Below, in pieces: positions 47,502 through 53,079 of a stretch of DNA of 64,000 bases. The position numbers and the translations under genes are program-made. The first letter of the stretch is position 1, and the number at the start of each line of letters is the position of its first letter. The notes beneath the pieces are model-generated. The model was not told the origin of the DNA. It saw only the letters and a list, made by a program, of their open reading frames with translations, and searched no databases. This DNA is from Dechloromonas hankyongensis (GTDB lineage Bacteria > Pseudomonadota > Gammaproteobacteria > Burkholderiales > Rhodocyclaceae), in the NCBI RefSeq assembly GCF_022012295.1, contig NZ_JAKLTN010000001.1, positions 558,001-622,000 on the forward strand, written 5' to 3'.

Positions 47502-48281
47502 ATGTTACGCATCATCTCCCTGAATCTCAATGGTATCCGCTCCGCGTGGAGCAAAAATGTGCTGCCGTGGGCTGCCGAGCAAAAAGCCGATGTCATTTGT
47601 CTGCAGGAACTGAAAGCCCAGCGCTCCGATTTGACGCCGGAAATGCTGGCGCCGGATGGTATGCATTCGTTCTACCACTGCGCCGAGAAAAAAGGCTACA
47701 GCGGGGTCGGCATCTGGAGCCGCCAGCAACCGGACCGGGTGGTCGAAGGCTTCGATGGCGGCGAATTCGACGCCGAAGGACGCTATATCCGCGCAGATTT
47801 TGGCAATCTGTCGGTGATTTCGCTTTATCTGCCTTCAGGTTCGTCTTCTTCTGACCGTCAGCAAGCCAAATTCCGATTTCTCGATGTGTTTTTCCCGCAT
47901 ATGCTGGCGTTGCGGGCTGAAGGTCGGGAAATCGTGCTGTGCGGCGACTGGAACATCGCTCACAAGGAAATCGACCTGAAGAACTGGAAATCAAATCAGA
48001 AAAATTCTGGGTTTCTGCCAGAAGAGCGGGCCTGGATGAGCAAGGTGTTCGACGAGCAGGGCTGGGTCGATGTCTATCGTCGCTTGCATCCTGACACCAC
48101 CGGCGAGGCCTATACGTGGTGGAGCAATCGGGGCCAGGCGTGGGCCAAGAACGTTGGGTGGCGGATCGATTACCAGATTGCCACGCCGGGCATGGCAGCG
48201 GCAGCATCGCGGGCGGAAATCTTCAAGGCGGCGCGTTTTTCCGACCATGCGCCGCTGATCGTCGATTACGCTGACAAATAA
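47502..48281 (+). CDS. xthA: Exodeoxyribonuclease III (AP endonuclease)
   Basis: A 259-aa EEP-fold nuclease of the ExoA/Xth type, which cuts DNA at abasic sites and trims 3' ends. Hallmarks are SLNLNGIRSAW, CLQELKAQ (catalytic Glu), CGDWNIAHKEIDLKNW and the terminal SDHAPLIVDY with the catalytic His. Full length, cytosolic. Divergent from pyrE. Confidence 0.94.
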   Translation: MLRIISLNLNGIRSAWSKNVLPWAAEQKADVICLQELKAQRSDLTPEMLAPDGMHSFYHCAEKKGYSGVGIWSRQQPDRVVEGFDGGEFDAEGRYIRADFGNLSVISLYLPSGSSSSDRQQAKFRFLDVFFPHMLALRAEGREIVLCGDWNIAHKEIDLKNWKSNQKNSGFLPEERAWMSKVFDEQGWVDVYRRLHPDTTGEAYTWWSNRGQAWAKNVGWRIDYQIATPGMAAAASRAEIFKAARFSDHAPLIVDYADK

Positions 48282-51178: not shown

Positions 51179-51793
51179 TCAACGTGCTTGGGTCAGGCGA
51201 TAGACCGCCAGGCTGCCGAGGAAATTCAGTTCGCGTTCGTCGTCGTTCTCGACCATGTTGCCGCCCTCGTCGAGGACGTGGCGTTCGCGGATGATGAGAC
51301 CCATCCGTGTGCACAGCGCCTCGAAGTCGAGCAGCGTGAAGAAGCGGACGTTGGGCGAGTCGTACCACTGGTAGGGCAGGTCTTCCGATACCGGCATGCG
51401 GCCGTCGAGGACCGAGCGCAGGTTCTTCCAGTAGGCGAAGTTGGGGAAGGAGATGACCGCCTCGCGGCCGACGCGCAGCATTTCGCGCAGGATACCTTCG
51501 GTGTGGCGCACCGTCTGCAGGGTACGCGACAGCACGACATGGTCGAAGGACTGGTCGGTAAATTCGTCGAGGCCTTTTTCCAGGTTGCCCTGCAGCACGT
51601 TGATGCCGTTCTTGATGGCGGCAAGGATGTTGGCATCGTCGATCTCGACGCCGACCCCGCGCACGCCGCGCGTGTCGATCAGGTGCTTGAGCAGCGTGCC
51701 GTCGCCGCAGCCGAGGTCGAGCACGCGATGACCGGGCTCGATCCAGGCGGAAATGATGTCGAAATCGGGGCGTCCCAGCGTGTGTGCCGTCAT
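51179..51793 (-). CDS. metW: Methionine biosynthesis protein MetW
   Basis: A 204-aa class I methyltransferase-like protein. The SAM-type motif [15 protein letters not shown] is near residue 24, followed by GVEIDDANI. MetW is required with MetX for homoserine acylation in bacteria that use the MetXW pair. ATG at 51793 overlaps the metX stop (ATGA), so the two are translated together. Confidence 0.93.
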
Positions 51794-52920
51794 AGCTTGA
51801 TGTTCCGCAGGTAGGCAGCGACGACGCCGTGGTAGTGGGCGTCATCCATCAGGAAGGAGTCGTGGCCGAAGTTGAGATCGATTTCGGCGTACGACACGTT
51901 GCGGTTGCAGGCGAGCAGGGCGGCGACGATCTCCTTCGAGCGGGCTGGTGTGAAGCGCCAGTCGGTGGTGAAGGAGGCGATCAGGAAGCCGGTGTTCGGG
52001 TTGCTGCGGGCCATGGCCTTGGTCAGGTCGCCGCCGTCGAGGCGGGCCGGGTCGAAGTAATCGAGCGCCTTGGTCATCAGCAGGTAGGTGTTGGCGTCGA
52101 AATAGCCGGCGAACTTGTCGCCCTGGTAGCGCAGGTAGGACTCGACTTCGAATTCGACGTCGAAATCGAAGCCGAAGGAACCGTTGCGCAGTTCGCGGCC
52201 GAATTTCTCGCCCATCTGGTCGTCGGACAGGTAGGTGATATGGCCGAGCATGCGTGCCAGACGCAGGCCGCGCACCGGACGGGTGTTGTGTTCGTAGTAG
52301 TTGCCGCCGTGGAAATCCGGGTCGGTCAGGATGGCCTGACGGGCGACGTCGTTGAACGCGATGTTCTGCGCCGACAGCTTGGGCGCCGAGGCGATGATGA
52401 TGGCGTGGCGGACGCGTTCCGGCTGGCTGATGGTCCATCGCATGGCCTGCATGCCGCCCAGGCTGCCGCCGATGACGGCGGCCCAGGCATCGATGCCGAG
52501 ATAGTCGGCGAGGCGGGCCTGGGCTTCGACCCAGTCGCTGACGGCGACGATGGGGAAGTCGGCGCCCCAGGGTTTGCCGGTGGCCGGATTGATCGACGAC
52601 GGGCCGGTCGAGCCGTGGCAGCCGCCGGGATTGTTCAGGCCGACGATGAAGAATTTGTCGGTATCGAGCGGTCGGCCGGGACCGACGATGTTGTCCCACC
52701 AGCCGACGTTGTTCGGTGCGTCGGCGTAATGGCCGGCGACGTGGTGGTGGCCGGACAGGGCGTGGCAGACGAGAATGGCGTTCGATTTGGCGGCGTTGAG
52801 TGTGCCATAGGTCTCGTAGACCAGATCGTAGGCCGGCAGAACGCCGCCACTGCGCAAGTGGAGCGGCTGATCGAAGTGGGCGCGCTGCGACGTGACGGCG
52901 CCGACGGATTGTCCTGGCAT
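51790..52920 (-). CDS. metX: Homoserine O-acyltransferase (MetX type)
   Basis: A 376-aa alpha/beta-hydrolase that acylates homoserine, the first committed step of methionine synthesis. The nucleophile serine is in [11 protein letters not shown]; the aspartate lies near [22 protein letters not shown] and the histidine in GHDSFLMDD. The acyl donor (acetyl- or succinyl-CoA) cannot be read with certainty; with MetW, betaproteobacterial enzymes often use succinyl-CoA. ATG at 52920. The 124-nt leader contains a SAM-II riboswitch and a terminator. Confidence 0.95.
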
Positions 52921-52930
52921 GCTGTTCCTG

Positions 52931-52969
52931 AAAACAAAAAACCCAGTTGGCCGAAAACGCGAACTGGGT
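52931..52969 (-). terminator. Intrinsic terminator in the metX leader
   Basis: On the minus strand ACCCAGTT (52969-52962) pairs with AACTGGGT (52948-52941) around a 13-nt loop, followed directly by six T residues (52940-52935). It sits between the SAM-II aptamer and the metX ATG, so it is the likely expression platform for attenuation. Confidence 0.88.
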
Positions 52970-52971
52970 GG

Positions 52972-53026
52972 TTCCCGTTTTAGCTGTATTTATAAGCGCC
53001 CGCAATCAGAGCTCAAATCGGCGCGG
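52972..53026 (-). promoter_or_regulatory. SAM-II riboswitch upstream of metX
   Basis: The minus-strand leader has a P1 stem GCGCC (53024-53020) with GGCGC (53000-52996). Its loop contains GATTTGAG and ATTGC, and it is followed by TATAAATACAGCTAAAA and CGGGAA. The order and the conserved strings match the compact SAM-II (SAM-alpha) H-type pseudoknot upstream of metX, in which the AGCTAAAA/GGGA tail folds back on the P1 loop. A small hairpin (53041-53027) precedes it. Binding of S-adenosylmethionine should switch off metXW. No sequence search was run. Confidence 0.88.
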
Positions 53027-53050
53027 CTGGAGGCCTTCCAGCGTCTGCAG

Positions 53051-53079
53051 ACGATACCGAGCAGGCAGCGAAAAGTCAA
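53051..53079 (-). promoter_or_regulatory. Sigma70-type promoter of metXW
   Basis: TTGACT (53079-53074) and TATCGT (53056-53051) on the minus strand are 17 bp apart. The predicted start near 53044 puts the SAM-II aptamer about 18 nt into the transcript. Confidence 0.7.

Follow-up and report, generated by a model that had tools for sequence, protein, structure and literature searches.

In the window, i.e. the whole 64,000-nucleotide stretch of Dechloromonas hankyongensis DNA analyzed here, the minus-strand leader of metX and metW is very likely a SAM-II riboswitch that acts as a SAM-OFF transcription attenuator of metXW. What appears to be new is the specific switch, in which a predicted antiterminator is built from the SAM-binding strand. 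In the order of transcription, a promoter is followed by a 5′ hairpin (P0), the aptamer, an intrinsic terminator, the Shine-Dalgarno sequence CAGGAA of metX (52925–52930, minus strand; outside the aptamer and the terminator stem), the metX start at 52920 and metW. metX (51790–52920, minus strand) encodes an enzyme of the homoserine O-succinyltransferase type (NF047916, 666.7 bits; cut-off 560), and metW (51179–51793, minus strand; TIGR02081, 248.7 bits; cut-off 189.5) overlaps the metX stop. MetX shares 98% identity with a Dechloromonas sp. CZR5 protein; its next named relatives are mostly from Dechloromonas and Azonexus, which places the host in that group of betaproteobacteria. A sequence-only reading of this DNA had placed metX directly after the leader, and the gene start, with metW behind, agrees with it. 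The element lies upstream of methionine genes and has a promoter shortly before stem P1, which is the context expected of SAM-II.

The window carries the core letters of SAM-II: stem P1 (52996–53024, minus strand; GCGCC at 53024–53020 with GGCGC at 53000–52996), GAUUUGA in loop L1, UUGC and GCUAAA. GAUUU in L1, UUGC in the 5′ strand of P2 and GCUAAA in the 3′ strand of P2, as in the Rfam consensus, are the hallmarks of this class. Behind P1, whose assignment is based on the sequence, the match to RF00521 and the family alignment, comes the linker UUAUAAAUACA and then the SAM-binding strand GCUAAAACGGG (52984–52974), the 3′ strand of the pseudoknot P2 (linker and strand together 52974–52995, minus strand). 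The P1 stem with the SAM-II loop strings had been proposed from the letters, and all of these parts were found; the aptamer, however, had been given as 53026–52972, and its ends needed correction, as the aptamer proper covers about 53024–52974.

Rfam at its gathering cut-off gave no match in the window. In permissive mode, SAM_alpha (RF00521) matched 53034–52963 from end to end, so that the covariance hit suggested as a check was obtained, but at 23.9 bits (E 0.0016) it stays below the cut-off of 36; the long-loop SAM-II model (RF01726) scored 18.2 bits (E 0.4) at the same site. Across the 4.1-Mb genome, RF00521 ranks this site first (E 0.0056; runner-up 0.31). Taken alone, the 23.9-bit score is suggestive; the relatives settle membership. 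A model built from 50 relatives without the window's genus gave the window 61.4 bits (E about 2e-18), and model R1, built from 52 sequences with the window's own among them, gave 64.9 bits; E-values from such relatives-based models are optimistic, as a coding stretch at 47617–47708 reaches E 0.004. This second match in the window (plus strand, E 0.002–0.004), which lies inside a 259-aa reading frame (47502–48281) and is without GCUAAA, was rejected as a chance match.

metX was found in 98 of the 101 genomes of the family, from which 97 leaders were taken, one genome having only a C-terminal fragment. The same leader stands directly before metX in 72 of the 97. An RF00521 site at E ≤ 0.05 is present in 73 of the 101 genomes and exceeds the cut-off in 18, and by coordinates at least ten of the above-cut-off sites are directly before metX (G059, G050, G030, G077, G058, G036, G073, G031, G074 and G090). 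Because of the 61.4-bit score, the 72 of 97 metX leaders and the ten or more leaders above the Rfam cut-off, the window leader can be securely assigned, by homology, as an ordinary member of SAM-II, and the conserved order of parts in the relatives supports the class that the RF00521 match indicates and that had been proposed. We take the sub-cut-off score to mean that the leader has diverged from a model that carries the alphaproteobacteria in its name, with homology retained; it also accounts for the element being unannotated. Family leaders are nearly frozen in sequence (GCGCCGATTTGA..CAGCTTGCGGGCGC..AAAT..GGCTAAAGCGAGG). In alignment A1, which holds 52 of 67 leaders, those with an insertion or a misplaced 5′ end being left out, UUGC and GCUAA are invariant in all 52 sequences, the window's included. 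Covariation was sought for P1 and P2 in this alignment and 0 pairs changed on both sides, the family showing next to no variation at these pairs. There, 98.3% of the P1 and P2 cells pair, and the window has one A·A mismatch in P2; the window's pseudoknot is thus a prediction from SAM-II homology and the fit of the letters. Long insertions or extra hairpins in L1 or in the linker from P1 to GCUAAA occur in four loci (L015, L016, L028 and L182), which suggests where SAM-II tolerates added sequence.

The intrinsic terminator (52931–52969, minus strand) has a stem of 8 perfect pairs between ACCCAGUU (52969–52962) and AACUGGGU (52948–52941), a 13-nt loop and the U-tract UUUUUGUUUU at 52940–52931. 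The perfect 8-bp stem with a U-tract had been recognized from the letters, and only its end, put at 52935, was too early, as the U-tract runs to 52931. The pattern scan has no entry for this terminator, presumably because the scan's loops are at most 8 nt. The predicted antiterminator (52950–52984, minus strand) joins GCUAAAACGGGAAC (52984–52971) to GUUCGCGUUUUCGGC (52964–52950) in 13 pairs with one G·G mismatch and one bulged C, and in the computed folds it excludes the bound aptamer and the terminator alike.

We propose that P0 and P1 would fold first as the polymerase leaves the promoter. At low SAM, GCUAAAACGGGAAC would then pair with the next stretch, GUUCGCGUUUUCGGC, and this antiterminator would hold the SAM-binding strand and part of the 5′ arm of the terminator, leading to readthrough into metX and metW. 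With enough SAM, GCUAAAACGGG would be held in P2, the pseudoknot that encloses the ligand, and the antiterminator would be blocked, leaving ACCCAGUU free for AACUGGGU, so that transcription would end at the U-tract. SAM as the ligand, the direction of the response and kinetic control are what we infer. Folds of the nascent RNA revealed that the antiterminator starts to form once the 3′ end is at 52958, has all its pairs by 52950 and is optimal through 52942, and that the terminator is optimal at 52940, its 3′ arm then being finished. With 3′ ends from 52954 to 52944, the probability of the antiterminator was 0.994–0.995 and that of the terminator about 0. When the P2 strands were blocked in silico, the antiterminator was at most 0.043 at 3′ ends 52954–52944, and the terminator rose to 0.61 at 52944, 0.86 at 52942 and 0.97 at 52940. 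At equilibrium without ligand, the terminator reached 0.12 at 52942, 0.68 at 52940 (antiterminator 0.30) and 0.98 at 52931, and at full length it wins with or without ligand (0.976 and 0.973). Since equilibrium favors the terminator regardless of ligand, a working switch requires a kinetic decision. As a whole, the leader has an unremarkable folding energy (z −1.24). The attenuation of metXW put forward by the sequence-only reading receives computational support from the conserved order, the exclusive antiterminator and the position of the Shine-Dalgarno sequence outside the aptamer.

Two other structures were considered and not adopted. The optimal full-leader fold contains a long hairpin of GCUAAAACGGGAA with the U-tract and GUUUUCAG, which was set aside as a regulatory structure because it can form only after the termination decision. 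Pairing of GCGGGC, on the 3′ side of P1, with GUCCGC of the terminator was first considered as the antiterminator and then dropped, because the window's nascent folds, with P1 included, prefer the GCUAAA tail; the prefix folds of relatives begin at GCUAAA, hence they are blind to this alternative.

Shuffles of the window's terminator loop equaled its pairing strength in 58 of 5000 cases. With the window tail, 23 other terminator-like hairpins from the DNA analyzed all pair less well, although their arms are shorter (mean 14.9 against 21 nt), so that this comparison favors the window. A terminator follows the element in 69 of the 72 element-bearing family leaders (70 before a hairpin call inside the coding region in L034 was excluded, from this count and from the antiterminator statistics). 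Of the three others, L034 has none near metX, and L135 and L152 have a stem with a weak U-run. In the 69, pairing of each tail with the arm and loop of its own terminator ranges from −6.5 to −21.3 kcal. Own pairs of tail and arm gave a total of −841.5 kcal against −793 ± 12.5 kcal for permuted pairs (1 of 20,000 permutations), where the permutations ignore relatedness and family members are phylogenetically non-independent; with one member per distinct tail (19 members), the own pairs were matched in 347 of 20,000 permutations. Swapped antiterminators averaged only slightly weaker (−11.4 against −12.2), since the consensus is common to most members. In a loop-shuffle test over the 69 members, the median p was 0.12, with 20 of 69 at ≤0.05. 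For the median member, 20% of a roughly length-matched background pairs as strongly, and 23 of the 69 members are at ≤5%. Among 54 Dechloromonas/Azonexus loci, pairing averages −13.1 kcal and is −7.3 kcal at its weakest, with two loop solutions, GUUCGCGUUUU and GUUCGCCCG. At the level of the order, a terminator is present in all 30 loci studied, which are top scorers and so a non-random sample, and pairing lies between −9.1 and −15.7 kcal. The terminator region of 8 of these 30 loci contains UUUAGC, which is exactly complementary to the core GCUAAA; of the 69 family members, just 1 has it.

Transcription is expected to start near 53044. The claimed promoter with a 17-bp spacer (53051–53079, minus strand) was recovered as TTGACT-17-TATCGT, a sigma-70-like site with 9 of 12 consensus matches, and it is the sole promoter-like site in a 1-kb stretch (0.2 expected from shuffles). 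Of 67 family leaders, 62 have a promoter site of at least 8 of 12 matches ahead of the aptamer, against 51 of 1340 after letter shuffling; so do all 54 Dechloromonas/Azonexus loci, which were not de-duplicated. The description of the leader as promoter, aptamer and terminator holds in these three parts, but it passed over the hairpin between promoter and P1, namely P0 (53026–53042, minus strand), in which GCUGGA (53042–53037) pairs with UCCAGC (53031–53026). P0 was recognized by folding against its own shuffles. In the Dechloromonas/Azonexus clade, the 24 nt before P1 fold at a mean of −8.6 kcal against −4.5 kcal in shuffles, and z is below −1 in 45 of 49 distinct clade leaders, against 14 of 65 in other genera. 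The stem letters are diverse (GCUGGA/UCCAGC, GCUGAA/UUCAGC, GCCGGA/UCCGGC, AGUCCA/UGGACU and others). All 54 clade loci have 22–27 nt between the −10 box and P1, and 53 of 60 non-clade loci with a promoter call have no more than 13 nt. This fold strength and the longer spacing mark P0 as a clade-specific insertion at the extreme 5′ end of the transcript, where it may protect or stabilize the leader against 5′-end-dependent decay.

Other readings of the locus have to be weighed against attenuation by SAM. The element might mostly control translation, SAM masking the ribosome-binding site in the way suggested for the compact SAM-II RNA from the Sargasso Sea. Direct occlusion is the standard SAM-II model in the available text of PMC10907184, and metK elements in this genus have a hairpin over the Shine-Dalgarno sequence and no U-run; at metX, however, the Shine-Dalgarno sequence (52930–52925) is about 45 nt beyond the 3′ end of the aptamer and outside the terminator stem, and between the two, in this leader as in 69 of 72 relatives, there is a stem with a U-tract. 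We regard mainly translational control of metX as very unlikely. Ranked lower again is a constitutive attenuator, or a chance terminator, that ignores SAM, the aptamer merely tuning stability or making an sRNA. In its favor, the terminator is the equilibrium structure in both ligand states as soon as the U-tract exists, and, in the part of the S. meliloti study seen here (PMC9373788), the metA terminator behind a SAM-II element has no predicted response. Against it, an antiterminator that uses the SAM-binding strand, here and recurrently across the order, would be needless for a purely constitutive terminator.

The least credible reading is that a betaproteobacterial RNA derived from SAM-II now answers another ligand, e.g. 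SAH or methionine, with the "metXZ" element as a separate class. P1 is almost frozen in this branch, and Leyn 2014, in its available sections, treated metXZ as a separate element and assigned it no ligand (PMC4239095). Against this, the core letters shared with the SAM_alpha consensus are intact, homologous metX leaders exceed the SAM_alpha cut-off, and in other genera within the order a dedicated riboswitch for SAH is present (RF01057 in L192, L196 and L200).

Attenuation by SAM-II is not a new idea. Corbino 2005 (PMC1273637), in the text accessible to us, named SAM-II, described terminators after P2 in many members and gave few occurrences outside alphaproteobacteria, with Bordetella bronchiseptica in a figure legend. 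In the accessible part of Barrick and Breaker 2007 (PMC2258182), attenuation was already reported: SAM-II was the aptamer most often linked to terminators, in alpha- and betaproteobacteria, and its control mechanism had not been established experimentally. Thus the contrast that the sequence-only reading drew between this locus and a translational norm for SAM-II was mistaken, since the 2007 paper had SAM-II linked to terminators. The window leader resembles SAM-II as modeled in RF00521 and RF01726 in its core letters, P1 with an H-type pseudoknot P2, upstream promoter, methionine gene and terminator after P2; it differs from the Rfam families in its sub-cut-off score, near-frozen P1, extra P0 and an explicit antiterminator formed from the SAM-binding strand. 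In S. meliloti, Scheuer 2022 (PMC9373788) studied metA and metZ, and from the part available, metZ also has SAM-II and then a terminator predicted to form on SAM binding, with its terminated sRNA more abundant under high-SAM conditions; unlike the window leader, it belongs to an alphaproteobacterium, and that part describes no antiterminator of the window's form.

Two further names concern the same genes. According to the accessible text of Leyn 2014 (PMC4239095), metXZ, described as new, is located ahead of metXW or metZ of betaproteobacteria, with one copy per genome and neither class nor ligand given, and SAM_alpha is found only in Rhizobiales and Rhodobacterales. Like the window leader, metXZ precedes metXW and metZ in the same bacterial group and has pseudoknot-forming blocks followed by a terminator, with an antiterminator proposed. 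From genes, clade and architecture, it is probably the same RNA as the window's; the branch blocks for matching alignment A1 to it are GATTTG, CTTGCGGGCGC and GCTAAA. Khoo 2012 (PMC3521395), as far as available, placed Bp2_Cand287 before metZ/metX and proposed a cis element, and "SAM-II", "SAM_alpha" and "SAM riboswitch" are absent from its main text. RF02424 (Bp2_287, "Burkholderia sRNA"), whose description names Khoo's candidate, matches 13 of 32 SAM-II loci at E ≤ 0.1 (L191, L192, L196, L198–L201, L205, L208, L209, L242, L245 and L246). All 13 matches are antisense to the SAM-II element, and the best reaches 43.6 bits against a family cut-off of 70; the five Rfam matches listed at the window do not include RF02424. 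When its consensus is reverse-complemented, a SAM-II aptamer, core included, with a terminator can be read. Hence RF02424, unlike the window's element modeled on the other strand and filed as an sRNA, appears to be the opposite strand of a SAM-II attenuator. Across the mainly open-access literature covered (SAM-II with metX, metK, Dechloromonas or antiterminators; metXZ; RF02424), the available text leaves these names unlinked and the window's antiterminator unstated, and the same holds for the available parts of PMC2704228, PMC10907184, PMC6337395, PMC10987360, PMC13273304 and PMC7266159.

On balance, we lean slightly toward a joint reading, in which betaproteobacterial SAM-II, metXZ and RF02424 are one order-wide family of SAM-II attenuators, the antiterminator being the complement of the SAM-binding strand, and P0 having been added in Dechloromonas/Azonexus, where it shields or insulates the leader. 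If this is true, the ligand pocket and the switch would be the same nucleotides, since the antiterminator complements the SAM-binding strand. The element is ordinary in kind, but RF00521 mostly misses this branch at its cut-off. Within the order, model R1 at E ≤ 0.01 has matches in 194 of 250 genomes, which cover 99 of 120 genera, and many of these genomes have two or more; this compares with 18 of 101 for RF00521, with a laxer threshold and a different, wider sample for R1. In 10 of the 194, the best E exceeds 1e-4, and these may be chance matches, given that the E-values are optimistic. The gene behind the 30 order-level loci is metZ in 15, metX in 3, metK in 3, metH in 2 and a distant metZ-like gene in one, and the remaining 6 have a downstream gene without assignment against four reference proteins. 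Recognizing the branch would give the orphan metXZ motif a likely ligand, suggests a strand correction for RF02424 and supplies a concrete antiterminator model for SAM-II; the added value lies in the antiterminator, in P0 and in bringing together names that had been scattered.

Besides these loci, several arrangements deviate from that at metXW. In L034/L108 (L108 from a Uliginosibacterium gangwonense MAG), a SAM-II aptamer stands before metX with no nearby terminator, and it may act differently. L021 is a metX leader with a CCCGGUC..GACCGGG terminator and no recognizable aptamer, possibly a decayed riboswitch. Outside the window, the same genome has a SAM-II-like element directly before metK (L222, C1:675603–675664, minus strand; 36.4 bits with R1). 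It has no U-run, and a hairpin, UGCUC-GUGGUCC..GGACCAC-UG-GAGCA, covers the Shine-Dalgarno sequence, as is similar in L244 and L250; L222 is apparently a translational form of SAM-II in the same genome. A weaker third SAM-II-like element (L223, C8:930594, 17 bits, E 0.05) has a GCUCC..CUCCCC/GGGGAG..GGAGC hairpin ahead of a start codon, and so does L252, from another genome of this genus. Tandems of SAM-II that combine different platforms have been reported, according to the available text of PMC9481103. In other genera of the order, L246/L253, L245 and L242 are tandem SAM-II elements with starts about 100–140 nt apart, the first, as judged by eye, with a terminator and the second without.
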